Source: a virus. Taken from it: a stretch of DNA of 38,866 nucleotides. The stretch is from positions 1 through 38,866 of IMG/VR virus record IMGVR_UViG_3300048834_000286. One strand, given 5' to 3'. Positions 3,472-37,366 of the stretch are shown here, one piece after another (position 1 is the first letter of the stretch; each line of letters opens with the position of its first letter). The translations under genes were made by a program, and so were the position numbers. Under the pieces are notes generated by a model. It did no database searches and was not told the origin of the DNA. It worked only from the letters and a program-made list of their open reading frames with translations.

Positions 3472-3824
3472 TGGCTAACCTGACGATCCGCCAGGGCACC
3501 ACGTGGCGCCCGACGCTGCGGGTGCGCACCACTCCCGGCGGCGACCCGTACGACCTGACCGGGTGGGGGCTGCGTATGCAGATCCGCGCCGACATCGCAG
3601 ACCGGGCGCCGGTCGTCCTCGCTGACCTGTCCATCGGTTCGGGTATCACCGTGACCGATGCGCCCGGCGGTGTGGTCGAACTGCTGCTCACCGCGGCGCA
3701 AACCCGAACACTGCCCGCCTCACCCCCGCCGCTGGTGTACGACATCGAGGCGATCACCCCCGACGGCGACACCCTGCGCTGGGCGTCCGGGCGTGTGACA
3801 GTGGAAGGCGAGGTGACCCGGTGA
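3471..3824 (+). CDS. BppU-like baseplate/fibre attachment protein (putative)
   Basis: A 117-residue protein starting I-R-Q-G-T-T-W and containing Y-D-L-T-G-W-x-L-R-M-Q-I-R. This pattern is seen in small phage proteins related to the N-terminal domain of baseplate upper proteins, which are beta-sandwiches that connect fibres to the baseplate. Its position directly before the collagen-like fibre gene, with a four-base overlap, supports an attachment or adaptor role. The family assignment rests on motif resemblance only. Confidence 0.6.
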
Positions 3825-7736: not shown

Positions 7737-8600
7737 TCAGCCGACCAGGCGCAGCGTCGGCCGCTCTGCCCAGGCCACCGCGGCGCGCAGCTCGGAGTCC
7801 GTGACCCCGAGGTAGCGTTGCGTCGTCGTCAGCGAAGCATGGCCGAGCAGCTTTTGGACCACCACGAGTGAGCCGCATTCGGCGTAGGTCCTGGTCGCGA
7901 ACTTGTGTCGCAGTGTGTGCGCTGTCCACCCCTTGCCCAATGTGCGAGCGATGCGGGTGCCGATCGCATCGGCCTTCACGTGCCCGCCGTAAGGGGAGGG
8001 GAACGCCCAGCCGCGCCCGGATAGCCAACCGGCGACGTCCGGCGGCACTGGTATGGCCCGCTTTTTGCGGCCCTTGCCCTCGATGGTGACGACGCCAGCG
8101 TTGAGCATGTCTGAGTGCAGCGCGGCGAGTTCGGCGCGGCGCATCCCTGTCGCCTCGGCTATGCGCAGCAGCCAGTAGCGCTCACCTGTGGACCGTGCCA
8201 GCGCCGCCTCGAACACCGCATCGGGGCACGGTTTGGGGCACGGTTCCGCTTCTGGAGGTGACTCCAGATTGCGCGCCGGGTTTTTCAGCCGCTTGGGTTT
8301 GCGTTCCCCGGGTGCGCGCTCCCTAATCTGCCGGCGTCGTTCCCACACCACCCACCACTTGTAGAACTGCGAGATCGACTCGATCGCGGACCGGCGTGTG
8401 TTGTCGGCCCAGTGCGGATGTGCAGCCAGCCACACCTCGATGTCGTCGACGTCGATCTGTGAGGGGTGCCGGCCCCCGAGCATGCGCCGGACATATTTCT
8501 GTCTCAGGGCGATCGTCCCCTGGCTGCGTCCCTTAGCCCCCAGGTGAGCGCCCCAACCCATGAGGATTGGATCAGTCACAGGCACGATCATGGCAGGCAT
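7737..8600 (-). CDS. int: Tyrosine-family integrase
   Basis: A 287-residue recombinase. An N-terminal SAM-like core-binding region (about 10-90) is followed by the catalytic domain with Arg154 in T-G-M-R-R-A-E-L, Lys176 in E-G-K-G-R-K-K-R, His228/Arg231 in H-T-L-R-H-K, His254 in L-L-G-H and nucleophile Tyr263 in T-T-Q-R-Y-L-G. All key residues are present, so it should be active. Its start is two bases from the stop of the upstream small gene, in a minus-strand unit with the repressor. The tRNA-like sequence 0.4 kb upstream is the likely attP. Confidence 0.95.
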   Translation of the reverse strand: MPAMIVPVTDPILMGWGAHLGAKGRSQGTIALRQKYVRRMLGGRHPSQIDVDDIEVWLAAHPHWADNTRRSAIESISQFYKWWVVWERRRQIRERAPGERKPKRLKNPARNLESPPEAEPCPKPCPDAVFEAALARSTGERYWLLRIAEATGMRRAELAALHSDMLNAGVVTIEGKGRKKRAIPVPPDVAGWLSGRGWAFPSPYGGHVKADAIGTRIARTLGKGWTAHTLRHKFATRTYAECGSLVVVQKLLGHASLTTTQRYLGVTDSELRAAVAWAERPTLRLVG

Positions 8601-8602
8601 GG

Positions 8603-8854
8603 CTACCCCTGCGCTCCAACGTTGGCAAGATTGTGCACAACTCGTTCCCGCTCGGTGAGCAGATCGGCGATCTGCCCGGAGCGCAGCCGGATCCGGCCCA
8701 ACACTTTGTAGCCCTGCTCGGCCAGGACGTTTGCCAAGTCCAGATCGCCGGTGCGCAGGGCACGAGTCGACTCGACCAGCAGACGGTCATAGGTGGCGCC
8801 GTCTGTGCGCTGCGCCTCGATGAGGCCCGGCAGCTGCTCGGTGATTGTGCTCAT
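8603..8854 (-). CDS. Small protein between repressor and integrase
   Basis: An 83-residue, largely helical protein whose ATG (8852-8854) overlaps the repressor stop as ATGA and whose TAG stop lies two bases before the integrase start. It contains no visible HTH or metal motif. Three coupled genes in the order repressor, this gene, integrase suggest a regulatory or recombination-accessory role. It could be a directionality factor, but the sequence does not show this. Confidence 0.65.
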   Translation of the reverse strand: MSTITEQLPGLIEAQRTDGATYDRLLVESTRALRTGDLDLANVLAEQGYKVLGRIRLRSGQIADLLTERERVVHNLANVGAQG

Positions 8855-9210
8855 GATGCCAGCCCCCATCCGGCGCAAGCGCCGAATAGTGTCCGGTAAT
8901 CACCAGATTCCCGAACGTTTACGCTCAGAGGGCTGCGCGGCCGGAACTGGATGACGTCGGCCAAACGCGTTCGGTAATCGGACGGTTCCAGGTTCGAATC
9001 CCGGCGCGGGAGCAACTCATCCAAGGGGCACCCGAGTGCGTCGGCTGCACGGTAAAGCTCATCGAGCGTCCACGGCCGGTCTCCGCGCAGCTTCTTGCTT
9101 AGCCCCGATTGCGTCATTCCGAGACGTGGAGCCATTGCAGTCTGGGTGATGTGCCGATCCCACATGTGTGAGTGGATCGCTTTCCCTACTTGCGTGTCGA
9201 GACTTGTCAT
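8851..9210 (-). CDS. XRE-family immunity repressor carrying attP in its 3' half
   Basis: A 119-residue protein from the ATG at 9210, which has a G-rich Shine-Dalgarno at 9223-9228; a TTG at 9240 would add ten residues. Residues about 8-62 form an HTH with T-Q-S-G-L-S-K-K-L-R-G as the probable recognition helix. Residues about 67-76 (L-L-P-R-R-D-S-N-L-E-P) are encoded by an antisense tRNA-like sequence, the probable attP. Integration would therefore replace the last 40 or so residues, which end G-W-G-L-A-S. It diverges from the regulator at 9300. Confidence 0.8.
   Translation of the reverse strand: MTSLDTQVGKAIHSHMWDRHITQTAMAPRLGMTQSGLSKKLRGDRPWTLDELYRAADALGCPLDELLPRRDSNLEPSDYRTRLADVIQFRPRSPLSVNVRESGDYRTLFGACAGWGLAS
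8975..9014 (+). other. attP: Candidate attP core: 3' part of a tRNA-Asn-like sequence
   Basis: Read on the plus strand, 8993-8999 is TTCGAAT (T loop), flanked by 8988-8992 and 9000-9004 as the T stem (one A-C mismatch at 8990/9002). 9005-9011 is a 3' acceptor strand, then G73 (9012) and CA. Upstream TAATCGGA matches the anticodon-stem side of tRNA-Asn. An A72/G73 acceptor end also fits tRNA-Asn. The 5' half of the tRNA is absent. Such fragments next to integrase are typical attP cores that restore the host tRNA end. Exact core limits need attL/attR. Confidence 0.7.
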
Positions 9211-9262
9211 ACTTCGAATGTACCCCCCTAGACACGCCAAATCAATCCGTACCTGCCAATAG

Positions 9263-9289
9263 TTGACATTCCAGTCCGGTGCGTACTAG
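9263..9289 (+). promoter_or_regulatory. Early rightward promoter for the 9300 regulator
   Basis: TTGACA at 9263-9268 and TACTAG at 9284-9289, spaced 15 bases (a 17-base spacing would place the -10 at CTAGCG). It lies in the gap between divergent repressor and regulator genes. The next ATG, 9300, is so close that the mRNA may be nearly leaderless. The same -10 word occurs in the promoter at 20931-20959. Confidence 0.6.
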
Positions 9290-9310
9290 CGTGCTTGTCA
9301 TGGCTAGTAC
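9283..9310. promoter_or_regulatory. 28-bp palindrome over early promoter and start codon
   Basis: GTACTAGC at 9283-9290 and GCTAGTAC at 9303-9310 are perfect inverted repeats separated by 12 bases that contain the ATG of the regulator gene. The left arm covers the -10 element. This is the form expected of a repressor operator; in RNA it could also form an 8-bp hairpin with the start codon in the loop. Confidence 0.65.
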
Positions 9311-9497
9311 ACAGCGTCCTAATCAGGACGACCCGCTGATCACCTCCCACGAGGCTGCCGAACTCATCGGCTGCTCCATCCAGTCTCTGCATCGATGGGA
9401 ATCCGATGGGCTAATCACCCCGAACCGCACACCCGGAGGCCACCGCCGATACCGGCAATCCGAAGTTCTGGAGCTGATCGAACGGCGCAGCGCATGA
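9300..9497 (+). CDS. MerR/excisionase-like HTH regulator
   Basis: A 65-residue protein from ATG 9300 (GTG codons at 9279 and 9291 are alternatives). It has the winged-HTH pattern I-T-S-H-E-A-A-E-L-I-G-C-S, then L-H-R-W-E-S-D-G-L-I, then G-G-H-R-R-Y, seen in BldC/MerR-type and phage excisionase-type DNA-binding proteins. It is the first gene of the rightward operon opposite the repressor, so it is either a Cro-like switch protein or the recombination directionality factor. No Shine-Dalgarno is evident. Its stop overlaps the next ATG. Confidence 0.75.
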   Translation: MASTQRPNQDDPLITSHEAAELIGCSIQSLHRWESDGLITPNRTPGGHRRYRQSEVLELIERRSA

Positions 9498-24629: not shown

Positions 24630-25268
24630 GTGGATGACCTACGCACTGCCGCGCAGGCGCGGGCTGCGGGTGTGACCCAGCGGTCGCATCGCCCGCAGCA
24701 GCGTCAGGCCGCCGACGGTGGGGGCCGGGTGTCGTTCCGCGCCGCCCTGTCCCTTGACGACACGGACGGGCTGCGGTTCCGCGGCTACGCCACGGTCTAC
24801 GAGGCCCCGTATGAGATGGCCGACTTCTTCGGGCCGTATGCGGAGGTGGTGTCTGCCGGCGCCGCCGCCGACACTTTGAACCGCGGCGATTTGGATGTGC
24901 CGTTCGTGCTCGGGCATGACCAGCTGCGGCGCATCGCTCGCACGACGAACGGCACGCTCACCCTGACCGAGGATGAGACGGGGCTGCTGGTGGAGGCCAC
25001 CCTCGACCCGTCCGATTCCGACGTTGCCTATATCGCCCCGAAGTTGCGCGCCGGGCTGATCGACGAAATGTCGTTCGCGTTCCGCATCACCAGCGGGCTG
25101 TGGTCCCCGGACTACAGCGAGTACCGCATCGACCGTTTCGATCTGCATCGCGGAGATGTCGCGATCGTCGGGTTCGGTGCGAACCCTGCCACTGCCGGAT
25201 CCGGGCTGCGCCACGCGCCCGATCTGGCACATCTGCGTGCGCGGCTGCTGCTCGCGTCCGCGCTCTGA
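24630..25268 (+). CDS. Prohead maturation protease (HK97 U35 type)
   Basis: A 212-residue protein from GTG 24630 (AGGAG at 24618-24622). Motifs: F-R-G-Y-A-T-V-Y, V-L-G-H-D with the catalytic His, and E-M-S-F-A-F-R with the catalytic Ser, then V-A-I-V-G-F-G-A-N-P. It cleaves the N-terminal delta domain of the capsid protein and itself during maturation. It lies between portal and capsid genes, as is standard. Confidence 0.9.
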   Translation: MDDLRTAAQARAAGVTQRSHRPQQRQAADGGGRVSFRAALSLDDTDGLRFRGYATVYEAPYEMADFFGPYAEVVSAGAAADTLNRGDLDVPFVLGHDQLRRIARTTNGTLTLTEDETGLLVEATLDPSDSDVAYIAPKLRAGLIDEMSFAFRITSGLWSPDYSEYRIDRFDLHRGDVAIVGFGANPATAGSGLRHAPDLAHLRARLLLASAL

Positions 25269-25272
25269 TTCT

Positions 25273-25294
25273 CCCCACCACCCTGGTGGGGTTT
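25273..25294 (+). terminator. Hairpin with short T run between protease and capsid genes
   Basis: CCCCACCA (25273-25280) pairs with TGGTGGGG (25284-25291) across a 3-base loop and is followed by TTT. This looks like an intrinsic terminator but lies inside the structural operon, so it may be partial or an mRNA-processing barrier that sets protease versus capsid levels. Confidence 0.55.
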
Positions 25295-25368
25295 CGGTCC
25301 CTCGCACGCTGCGGCCTGACCAGCGGACCTCCTCCTGTATCACCCGAACCCTTGAAAGGGGAAACACG

Positions 25369-26724
25369 ATGACTCTCGAAGAGCTCATCACGCGGGCGCG
25401 TACCGACCTGGCCGCGCTGCTCGCTGACCGCAACTCCAAGACCGAAACCCTTACCGCCCTGCGTTCCGCGGACACCCTCGACGAGGCGACCGTGGAGGCC
25501 GCTATCGCCGCCCGCGACGCGCTCGACCCGAAGATCGCCGCCGGGCAGGCCCGACTCGAAGAGCTCGAGGCCGAGCTGCTGCGCGACCAGGCCGCGGCAG
25601 AGTTGGCGTCCCGCTTCCACATGGTTGCCCCCGAGCAGCGTGCCGGTGTCTCGGTGATTTCGGAGCCGGAGGTGTACACCCGCGAAGGCCACGTCTCCTA
25701 CTTCAAGGATCTGTACCGGGCCAAGGTGCACGGTGACCGTGACGCTGTCGACCGCCTCTCGCGCAACGACAAGGCTGTGCAGTCCCGCGCCATCGGCACC
25801 CCTGACGGTGGCATCGGCGAGTTCATCCCGCCGCTGTGGATCACCGACGAGTACGAGGCGTTCGCCCGCGCCGGCCGTGTCGCAGCTGACCTGCTGCGCA
25901 AGGAGGTTCTGCCCGGTGGCACCGACTCGATCAGCCTGCCGATCGTCACCGGCGGATCTAGCGTCGGCGAGCAGACCGAGGGTTCGGCTGCGTCCGAGAC
26001 GGACATGACGTCGTCTAGCACCACGGCCGCAGTTGCAACGATGGCCGGGTTGCAGACGTCGTCGCTGCAGCTGGTGGAGCAGTCCCCGTTCAACATCGAC
26101 TCCATCATCTTGGGCGATTTGGCCGCGGATCACGCGCGGAAGGTGTCGCAGTTCGTCATCTCCAACAACGCGGCGAACAAACGCGGTCTGCTCAACGTTT
26201 CCGGCATCAACGCGATCACGCTCACCACGGGTAGCCCCACGTTCCCGCTGCTGTGGCCGAAGCTCGTAGACGCGCAGCTGCAGGTCCACACCGGTCGGCT
26301 CCTGCCCGCGACGCACATCCTCATGCACCCGCGCCGTTGGGCGTGGTTGCAGTCGCAGCTGGACTCGACCGGCCGCCCGTACGCGTCGGCTGACATCGAC
26401 TTCCCGCTGCTGGCCACCGTGAACGGTTCGGTGCCGGAGGGCTTCGCCGGGCAGATCCGTGGCATGTCGCTGCCGGTCTACCTCGACCCGAACGTGCCCA
26501 TCAACCTGGGTTCGGGCACGAACGAGGACCGCATCATCGTGTTCCGGCCGGCTGACAGCGTGCTGTTCGAGTCCGCCCCGCAGGCCGAGGCGTTCCGCGA
26601 AACGAAGTCGAAGGAATTGCAGGTCGTGTTCCGGTTGTACAACTACATCGCGCTGCTCAACGCTCGCGCGCCGAAGTCGATCAGTGTGATCGCGGGTACC
26701 GGCCTGGTCACCCCGACGTTCTGA
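25369..26724 (+). CDS. Major capsid protein (HK97 fold)
   Basis: A 451-residue protein. The first 110 residues are a charged coiled-coil delta domain that serves as built-in scaffold and should be removed by the protease. The HK97 body follows: G-G-I-G-E-F-I-P-P-L-W, an E-loop region with G-G-T-D-S-I-S-L-P-I-V, H-I-L-M-H-P-R-R-W-A-W-L, P-V-Y-L-D-P-N-V-P, and a C-terminal beta region. Shine-Dalgarno AAAGGGG precedes ATG 25369. The gene is flanked by hairpins, consistent with strong separate expression. Confidence 0.92.
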   Translation: MTLEELITRARTDLAALLADRNSKTETLTALRSADTLDEATVEAAIAARDALDPKIAAGQARLEELEAELLRDQAAAELASRFHMVAPEQRAGVSVISEPEVYTREGHVSYFKDLYRAKVHGDRDAVDRLSRNDKAVQSRAIGTPDGGIGEFIPPLWITDEYEAFARAGRVAADLLRKEVLPGGTDSISLPIVTGGSSVGEQTEGSAASETDMTSSSTTAAVATMAGLQTSSLQLVEQSPFNIDSIILGDLAADHARKVSQFVISNNAANKRGLLNVSGINAITLTTGSPTFPLLWPKLVDAQLQVHTGRLLPATHILMHPRRWAWLQSQLDSTGRPYASADIDFPLLATVNGSVPEGFAGQIRGMSLPVYLDPNVPINLGSGTNEDRIIVFRPADSVLFESAPQAEAFRETKSKELQVVFRLYNYIALLNARAPKSISVIAGTGLVTPTF

Positions 26725-35000: not shown

Positions 35001-35327
35001 CACATGCCGCTGCTGCACGCGATCAACGCCGGGCAGATCAACGGGCCCGGCACCGGCACGTCTGACTCGATCCCCGGTGCAGCCCGTCCGGGTGCGTTCG
35101 TCGTGAACGCGGCCCAGACGCGCCGTAACCGGTCGCTGCTGCGCTCCATCACCCACGGGTCTGGACCGTCGCAGTACCTTGCTGGCGGCGGCGTGGTGGG
35201 CTCTGGCGGGGCCGTGTTCGCCGGTGGTGCGCAGACCGTGGAGCTGCACATCTCCGGCCGCGTGCTCTACGGGGCATTGAGCGACTACCGGCGTGACTCG
35301 GGCCGTGCCGTGCTGGAGTTCGCCTAA
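32079..35327 (+). CDS. Tape measure protein with M23 peptidase domain
   Basis: A 1082-residue protein, start ATG 32079 (a TTG at 32067 is possible). A helical N-terminal half carries a hydrophobic Gly/Ala stretch (about 400-440). Five exact-length 37-residue repeats span about 535-719 (Q-V/I ... M-x-A-A-V ... I-P-x-G-A ... A-I-x2-A-G-x-A-G-L-T). An M23 metallopeptidase domain lies at about 830-945, with His847 and Asp851 in H-Y-G-I-D and His925/His927 in H-L-H-F-E as zinc/catalytic residues. It sets tail length and probably cuts peptidoglycan locally during DNA entry. Confidence 0.92.
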   Translation: MARSADLIFNLIGKDKTGPAFKAAAGNADKTRGSFDQVGVSMGKLAKLAGGLALGAGIVAGSKALAGFAMSATMAASDLGEVRTANEQIFGSEAAAELNAWSAKAATALGQTKTQALDAAKTFGVFGKAAGLSGTDLSGFSMELTTLATDMASFNNTSPEEAIEAIGAALRGEAEPMRRFGVLLDDATLKARAMEMGIWDGTGSLTQQQKVLAAHAEILAQTSDQQGDFAKTSGGMANQLRTTTAIWENIKIAAGEALVPVAEKFLPMVNEGLTGLLTSVEENMPQIQARIVGFADDVIAKWPEVKVKLEEAFAGIKSEWPEIKDTLNTFGDALERVAGFGQLMWDAFKSLPPEAQKIIALLAVAKTSGVLSVAFKATDLVKSLFAANVTVVASNVVTPGAGGAAGTAGKAGAVGALTLGGAVTIAVGTAAIAWSAIEILKGYDSNERTESDSRPGSTMGDRAAVAAGTSAGGSPGTAGLGAMIAGWLEADQAVQKYNYSLSRANEHMSRAQPSAQRLAQSVAAAGTAAGASQLQISAVSAAVQKLPAGANIEQLRAAIAEAGRQAGLTEDQIAGMTSGVLNVPAAGNLPALQMQLAFAGSAAGLTSDQVTAMSAAVNMIPPGATAVQVGEAIRIAGQKAGMSDSQIRSMTAAVTGIPGAAQLPNLQTAIANAGRAAGLTDGQVRTMSASVFAIPRGATAEQAGEAIRVAGQKAGLTKTQVDTLIAAINGIPPNKTSTITTNADAERTKIGALQLAINSLAGKELKVGVKLEGSYGGGPTGGSGGTSTYTGSAGGVSSWLTGEVDGLANALAPKLAATGDIGSGPWVRPTSNYSVSSEWMRGGTAIHYGIDLAAPMGTPVHSVAAGRVTRAFWNNGYGNFVEVDHGGVYTSYSHLSAILASAGQTVGPGSVIGAIGSTGDSTGPHLHFETRPGGQAVEPRGFMRSRGVELRAGGMVPVNVSNGEWFVPETKAKDHMPLLHAINAGQINGPGTGTSDSIPGAARPGAFVVNAAQTRRNRSLLRSITHGSGPSQYLAGGGVVGSGGAVFAGGAQTVELHISGRVLYGALSDYRRDSGRAVLEFA
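33681..34235 (+). repeat. Five in-frame 111-bp repeats within the tape measure gene
   Basis: Five units of exactly 37 codons encode an A-G-x2-A-G-L-T-x2-Q motif, followed by a partial sixth. Units 3 and 5 resemble each other (P-x-G-A-T-A-x-Q-x-G-E-A-I-R), as do 2 and 4, so the array may have grown by duplicating a 74-residue pair. Confidence 0.8.
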
Positions 35328-37366
35328 TGGCCCGCCGTCCGATCTCGCGCCAAATCGGGGTGCGGGTGGAGATGTCGCCCACCGGGTCGGTGGCGCAGAT
35401 GCTGCGCGGCGAAACCCTGACGTGGGTCGACGTGTCGTGCCATGTGCGCCTCGATGGTGGGATCGAACTAGGCCGCGGGGTGTCCGGTAACGGGCTGTCC
35501 CCCGACACTGGCACGCTCACCCTGACGGTGGCGAACGATGACGGGTCATGGACACCGGGGCAGGCGACACACGCCGTGTTCGGGGTGCCGGATCCGTTGG
35601 CGATGCGAGGCATCCCGGTGCGAGTCCTGCACTTAGGCGACGTCCCGACGTACGGCGAAACCTCCGCGCTCTGGGTGACCTACGAGGCGTGGGCCGATGC
35701 CGAACCCACCTACGGCGACGTGACCACCCCTGCCGTGCTGTGGTCCGGCGTGGTGACCAAAGCCCGCGCCGCGTGGGTGAACGGTTCACTACCGGTGGTG
35801 CGGATGACCTGCGCCGACCCGGTGGCGACGCTGCAACGCCAGCGGATGGAGTCGCTGCCGGTGACGATGACCACCCACGTCGGTGGCGCCGCCTGGTGCT
35901 ACCCGCTGACCGAATCCGCCGCGCCGATGTCCTCACCCACAGCTACGGCTGGGGTGCGCCCGCTGACCAAAGTCGCGGTCGGGTTCCCGCTGGAGGGCAA
36001 CGAGCTGGAGTTTCAGGCGTTCCCCTCGCCTGGGTCCAACGGTGGCGCACCGGAGGCGCAGGTGCCGGTGTGGGAAGGTTCCACGACGCACACCGGGTGG
36101 GCGCTGGACACCGGCATCGTGGCGACCGCTGACATGCCTGCCTTGTCGTCGTTCTCGCAGGTGTGCACACTGCACGCCATGATCGCGCCCTCACCCGAGG
36201 GTGTGGGCCGGGTGCGGTATGCGCTGTCCGTGTCAGGTGACATCGGCTCGATCATCTCCATCGGCGTGAACGCGCTGAACTACCCGGTCGTGGAGGCGCG
36301 CCCGGGTGCCCCCGGTGTGGTGCACACGCTGACCTCGCCGGTGCAGGTGCGGTCCGGGGAATGGTCGCATGTGGCGCTGCGCCTCACGGGTGACCCGTTC
36401 GAGTCCGTCGCCGAGTTGTGGGTGGACGGCGCGGTCGTGGCGACGGCACCGTACTGGCCGCTGTTCTACACCGCCGCCGCCCGCCGCATCGTCGTCGGGG
36501 CACGGATCACCCCCCGCGGCGAACTGGTCGACGTGTGGCAAGGCTCTGTCGCCAACGCGTCCGCACATCGGGCCGGGATCGCAAACCTAGTCCTACAGCG
36601 CATCGCGCTGGGCCGCGACGGGTGGACAGGAGATGACACGTGCGGCCGGTTCAACCGGGTCCTGTACGCGCTGGGCTACGACCGCACCAGTCTGCCGGAG
36701 GGCAACTCGAATATGTGCCCCCAGCACACCGATGGCGGTGTGTTGGCTGATGCGCTTACGGACTGTGCGACCGCCGAGCGGGCGCCGTGGTGGGTGGGCC
36801 GTGACGGGGTACCGACGATGGCGCCGAGGTCCGCGCGCTGGTCCGCCGCAACCGTCGCGACGATACCCGCCGCCGCGTTGGGGCAGTCGTTGGAGTTCGC
36901 GCAGGACAATGCGACCCGCCAGACCGTTGCGGTGGTGTCGCGCCCGGGCGGGCCGACGATCACCCGCAGGCATCCCGCGGCCGATCTCGTCGGTGAGACC
37001 GGCGACCCGATGACCCTGCTCGTCGACTCCGATGGGCAGCTGGAAACCTATGCCGACGAGTTGGTGACCGACCGTAACGCGATCCCGCAGATCGAAACCG
37101 AATCCGTGACGGTGGATTTGGTGCGCTCCGGTCGGCTGCTCGACATCCCCGACGTGCTCGCCGTGGACGTCGAGGACGTGGTGGAGATCACCGGGCTGCC
37201 CGCGTCGGCGCCGTGGACGTCGCGGCGCATGTTGGTGCGCCACATCACGGACCGCATCACACCCACATCGTGGCTGCGCACCTTCGCTGTCGTGGACGCG
37301 CCAGACCTGATCGACGTGTTCCGCGTCGGCGACGAGCTCGACGGACCGAGAGTATTGGGATGGTAA
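35327..37366 (+). CDS. Minor tail protein with LamG-like region
   Basis: A 679-residue protein whose ATG overlaps the tape measure stop by one base. The first 200 residues resemble distal-tail proteins (V-D-V-S-C-H-V-R-L-D-G-G-I-E-L-G-R-G, L-T-V-A-N-D-D-G-S-W-T-P). Residues about 220-420 look like a LamG/concanavalin fold (W-S-H-V-A-L-R-L-T, V-A-E-L-W-V-D-G-A-V-V). The remainder is a beta-rich tail-tip region ending D-G-P-R-V-L-G-W. The last 305 residues recur at the left end of the window as another allele. Confidence 0.8.
   Translation: MARRPISRQIGVRVEMSPTGSVAQMLRGETLTWVDVSCHVRLDGGIELGRGVSGNGLSPDTGTLTLTVANDDGSWTPGQATHAVFGVPDPLAMRGIPVRVLHLGDVPTYGETSALWVTYEAWADAEPTYGDVTTPAVLWSGVVTKARAAWVNGSLPVVRMTCADPVATLQRQRMESLPVTMTTHVGGAAWCYPLTESAAPMSSPTATAGVRPLTKVAVGFPLEGNELEFQAFPSPGSNGGAPEAQVPVWEGSTTHTGWALDTGIVATADMPALSSFSQVCTLHAMIAPSPEGVGRVRYALSVSGDIGSIISIGVNALNYPVVEARPGAPGVVHTLTSPVQVRSGEWSHVALRLTGDPFESVAELWVDGAVVATAPYWPLFYTAAARRIVVGARITPRGELVDVWQGSVANASAHRAGIANLVLQRIALGRDGWTGDDTCGRFNRVLYALGYDRTSLPEGNSNMCPQHTDGGVLADALTDCATAERAPWWVGRDGVPTMAPRSARWSAATVATIPAAALGQSLEFAQDNATRQTVAVVSRPGGPTITRRHPAADLVGETGDPMTLLVDSDGQLETYADELVTDRNAIPQIETESVTVDLVRSGRLLDIPDVLAVDVEDVVEITGLPASAPWTSRRMLVRHITDRITPTSWLRTFAVVDAPDLIDVFRVGDELDGPRVLGW

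Follow-up and report, generated by a model that had tools for sequence, protein, structure and literature searches.

The repressor gene of this phage raises the question of whether its attachment site (attP) lies within the repressor reading frame itself, so that integration would alter the repressor and thereby establish immunity. The initial annotation had proposed as much, on the model of mycobacteriophages BPs, Brujita and Charlie. The window, the whole stretch of DNA that we analysed, is a 38,866-base virus record with genes for terminase, portal, major head, tape-measure and tail-fibre proteins. On its minus strand, an XRE/Cro-C1-type helix-turn-helix (HTH) repressor (8851..9210; 119 aa in its viral form, with the HTH at about residues 16-67) is followed by P0002, an 83-aa ORF (8603..8854) that matched no Pfam or PHROG family, and then by a complete tyrosine integrase of 287 aa (7737..8600), in which the catalytic R, H-x-x-R, H and Y are conserved. 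The repressor was matched by the Pfam profiles HTH_3 (9e-8) and BetR (4e-8) and by phrog_4583, transcriptional repressor (3e-12). Its stop codon overlaps the ATG of P0002, the P0002 stop is 2 bp from the integrase gene, and by this arrangement the three genes are a coupled unit, as had been claimed. For the integrase, Pfam recognised the catalytic domain and, weakly, a SAM-like N-terminal domain only, and no arm-binding domain.

Divergent from this unit on the plus strand, in the position of an excisionase or Cro, lies a gene for a MerR-type HTH protein (9300..9497), matched by MerR (2e-12) and by phrog_66, excisionase and transcriptional regulator (5e-9). The interval between it and the repressor gene (9211..9299) is presumably a divergent control region, and an inverted repeat (9277-9290 / 9303-9316) that reaches into the 5' end of the MerR-type gene is a possible operator. 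The XRE protein could itself be a Cro-type regulator, although its position and architecture argue for a repressor. In the tail-gene region, 84-917 and 35327-37366 match one PHROG, phrog_5313, with overlap at profile positions 710-946, and may represent two paralogues.

The attP common core is a 39-bp stretch of the plus strand, 8975..9013 (TAATCGGACGGTTCCAGGTTCGAATCCCGGCGCGGGAGC), which reproduces the 3' half of the host's tRNA-Asn(GTT), starting with U36 of the anticodon and ending one C beyond the discriminator base, and which is antisense to, and in frame with, repressor codons 66-79. All 39 bases are identical to the tRNA-Asn(GTT) genes of two Actinomycetota MAG loci, L027 and L030; the identity is broken by host T against phage G at one end and by host C against phage A at the other, and an unusual T-stem mismatch, CCAGG/CCCGG, is common to the phage core and the host tRNA. 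The exact core was present in two of 166 genomes of the MAGs' order, those of L027 and L030, and a reversed-pattern control in none; the match far exceeds what chance would give. The antisense tRNA-like codons reported by the initial annotation are thus real, although LLPRRDSNLEP spans L66-P76 and had been numbered one residue off, as 67-76, and the exact core is longer than the 8988-9014 first given. The core sits 375 bp from the integrase, close to the 0.4 kb stated. A scan of the 38.9-kb window for T-arm-like elements found this core alone, and comparison of the left 20 kb with the L027 and L030 genomes gave no other match of comparable strength. Rfam and ARAGORN found no match at attP, as expected of half a tRNA. 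Four other loci, L004-L007, matched the tRNA-Asn pattern and were set aside as ordinary tRNA-Asn-like sequences in other viruses.

The consequences of recombination at this core were modelled by joining the 5' half of the L027 or L030 tRNA to the window across the core. ARAGORN recognised a tRNA-Asn, without an encoded CCA, in the simulated attL, and no tRNA was present in the simulated attR or in attP. With either host sequence, the repressor was cut to 78 aa, ending LLPRRDSNLEPSD and then TAA. Codon 79 (8974..8976, minus strand) is TAC (Tyr) in the phage and TAA at attL, where tRNA bases U36-A37-A38 of the Asn anticodon loop, read in antisense, form the stop. Since this antisense places a TAA in frame, no host-encoded tail is expected and 41 residues are lost. 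The expectation that integration would swap the last 40 or so residues for a host-encoded tail was therefore not borne out, the simulated frame stopping at once (LEPSD-TAA), whereas the HTH would indeed be spared, as truncation at 78 aa leaves it untouched. Both the gene anatomy and this predicted truncation can be read from the DNA itself. The sequence removed, codons 79-119 and the stop (8851..8976, minus strand), encodes a 41-residue C-terminal tail that is specific to the viral form, has GWGLAS as its last residues, and is predicted to carry an inactivating or degradation signal.

We suggest that the armless tyrosine integrase would recombine the core with the host tRNA-Asn, the crossover falling, at a guess, in the region of the 7-nt T loop that the two T-stem arms enclose. 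attL would then consist of the 5' half of the host tRNA, the core and the N-terminus of the repressor, and attR of the 41-codon tail, P0002 and the integrase gene. At attL the tRNA would be intact, and the repressor frame, reading antisense into it, would meet the TAA, such that the lysogen would make a 78-aa HTH protein. By homology with known systems, the 119-aa viral form would be inactive or unstable through its tail; immunity would be set up only after integration, and excision would restore the long form. An attP inside the immunity repressor gene, acting as an integration-dependent immunity switch, is very probably what this locus represents.

Relatives of the phage carry the core at the same place. 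In the nearest, L002 (IMG/VR contig 3300043447_000514), the integrase is 78% identical to that of the window, the repressor only 36%. The L002 core lies at the same repressor codons (LLPRLDSNQQPSDY), differs from the window core at the T stem, and is identical over 39/39 bases to the tRNA-Asn of Georgenia-group genomes (L011, L012, L028, L032). With the window core matching L027 and L030, these two cores thus each follow a different host tRNA. A third case (LLPRMDSNQQPSGY) was found on L043, a 3-kb MAG contig with an integrase 47% and a repressor 39% identical to ours; its core is at the same place, and none of the fetched loci contains a host tRNA that matches it exactly. L137 combines a repressor with 45% identity over 85 residues and a tRNA-Asn-like core. 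A query of viral contigs with the repressor gave no match. L044 (minus strand) encodes a related repressor that extends just five codons (YWMAA) beyond the site of the predicted stop; immediately ahead of the core, its reading frame passes through a hairpin resembling a tRNA terminator.

Lysogens provide attL/attR evidence for the same anatomy. Integrase-family profiles were run on 395 sampled genomes of the class, and both junctions could be read in six lysogens with related integrases, with tRNA-Lys (G325), tRNA-Arg (G375, G504, G382 and G020) or tRNA-Met (G518) as the target. In all six, attL carries an HTH ORF that enters an intact tRNA gene in antisense and terminates within it at a TGA or TAG codon, while at attR the integrase gene lies beside a partial tRNA copy with a 35-41-bp core. 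When the flanks were rejoined, the phage forms of the HTH proteins were 10 to 103 residues longer. Other candidates were set aside: G340 and G395, with no second core copy within 60 kb, G497, where the core is near a contig edge, and G517, which has a core pair and no HTH ORF there. The prophage of G375 (L076, L091-L093), only about 17.5 kb long, shares this architecture, and its phage-form tail does not end in -AA; it could represent either a satellite or a prophage in decay.

The junctions anticipated in actinobacterial genomes therefore exist for six related prophages and were not found for the phage's own clade: no integrated copy of the phage or its immediate relatives was detected in the 166 genomes of the order or in genome contigs, the integrase pair had no match in genome contigs, and the repressor profile retrieved from the 166 genomes only L043, in its attP form, and unrelated XRE genes. 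The missing lysogen of this exact phage is what would be expected if the tRNA-like stretch had arisen by chance or were a defunct remnant, with a working attP elsewhere. Yet such an origin is highly improbable given 39 exact base pairs, a nearest relative equally exact to a different host, the lack of any other tRNA-like core in the window, and related prophages that use the equivalent site. The placement of attP in the repressor gene, as initially claimed, is instead supported by the exact tRNA-Asn match, its conserved site in relatives, the correspondence of core and host tRNA, and the six lysogens.

The fate of the viral form depends on its tail. Four of the six rejoined phage forms end in -AA (RLAA, ERAA, SAA and VAA), and, when rejoined and intact attP-in-repressor forms are taken together, 10/17 do so against 25/855 background long ORFs of the same regions, a strong enrichment to which no exact probability can be attached, as the 17 forms were chosen by architecture and some are related. 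The same figures bear on whether a functional attP merely overlaps the 3' end of the repressor gene, the tail being dispensable and integration having no regulatory effect. The untouched HTH and the variable length and sequence of the relatives' tails would suit a dispensable tail. The enrichment of -AA ends speaks against it, as does the fact that the site keeps its place in repressors that have diverged strongly and with several types of tRNA, and we consider this reading improbable. Integration-dependent immunity of the BPs, Brujita and Charlie type, as first proposed, remains the best explanation.

Under integration-dependent immunity, we infer by homology that the 119-aa form is degraded. 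The viral forms of the nearest clade end in GLAS (window) and RSAR (L002), and the L043 frame runs into the integrase gene; the nearest clade is thus without a canonical -AA degron. Some published members of the class also lack -AA tags and are still counted as integration-dependent (PMC8092301), and hence the tag is typical and not obligatory. It is conceivable, with a probability that we put clearly below even, that integration truncates the repressor while the tail is something other than an ssrA-like degradation signal: it might block oligomerisation or carry another protease signal, or both forms might be active. The endings in the window, L002 and L043, those published members, and the pattern PSDY.T...VI...S.DYRT shared by the window and L002 tails all fit such a tail; however, L137, with its tRNA-Asn-like core, ends SLAA, and most related systems end in -AA.

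The tails also contain repeats of the core edge. In the window, a 22-nt partial direct repeat of the integrase-proximal edge (8880..8901, plus strand; other copy 8958-8979, spacing 78) is weak against shuffles (16/200), and apart from it, at 78 bp, no arm-type integrase sites were found flanking the core. In the L002 tail, 47 nt of the core edge and adjoining sequence are repeated directly at 74% identity on the integrase side (3611-3657 and 3683-3729, spacing 72), and similar repeats occur in Gordonia phage Pipp (L008, near 3250 and 3343, spacing 93) and L151 (near 2340-2480, spacing 123); for each of these three, 0/200 shuffles did as well. The repeat may have been left behind by a duplication of att, or it may serve as an accessory site for the recombinase. 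Direction control in the armless integrases of such systems has been called a conundrum (PMC6109161), and one speculation, to which we give little credence, is that the window and L002 tails hold a diverged partial copy of the integrase-proximal half of the core, which as an accessory integrase or excisionase site would lend directionality to the armless integrase, and that the encoded tail would inactivate the repressor with no need of an -AA degron.

The exact tRNA-Asn core also gives a host link, and the host tRNA itself would supply the stop codon. The MAG with the exact core at L027 (G007) holds contigs related to the phage, L204-L206, and the major head protein of L204 is 80% identical to that encoded at 25156-26724 of the window; we take these contigs as an independent hint at the host. 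The locus is probably a known type of lysis-lysogeny switch in a new phage, with a host that is probably new as well. Integration-dependent immunity is thereby extended to a lineage of phages from uncultivated actinobacteria, with the same anatomy evidenced by attL and attR in six bacterial genomes, and how members without -AA are switched off becomes a directly testable question.

Integration-dependent immunity has been described in mycobacteriophages BPs, Brujita and Charlie (clusters G, I, N and P; PMC4557955). As in the window, BPs, Brujita and Charlie have the attP core inside the repressor ORF, a tyrosine integrase downstream in the same leftward unit, a divergent small DNA-binding gene, and a shorter repressor after integration; the truncation is 41 residues in the window and 33 in BPs (PMC4557955). 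The window differs from them in its tRNA-Asn target, the extra ORF between repressor and integrase, the MerR-type gene in the cro position and the GLAS end. Gordonia phages also have such systems (PMC5559632), and gp38 of Pipp (MN234179), 40% identical to the N-terminal part of our repressor, likewise contains antisense tRNA-like codons (ARRDSNPKPS) beside a tyrosine integrase, although its tRNA-like core is a different one and its tail ends AAA. In the M. abscessus prophage clusters MabB, C, H, K, N and O, bacterial sequence supplies the attL stop, as predicted here, and some members resemble the window in having no -AA tag, but the reported truncations are 20-35 residues and the host and repressors are others (PMC8092301, PMC9934374). 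The Bifidobacterium prophages Bb423phi2 and 689b-1 share a predicted attP in the repressor, a tRNA target and loss of the tail; unlike the window, they use tRNA-Met and lose an 18-residue tail with an ssrA-like tag (PMC6109161). The window phage thus joins a form of immunity already described in phages and prophages of mycobacteria, Gordonia and Bifidobacterium.
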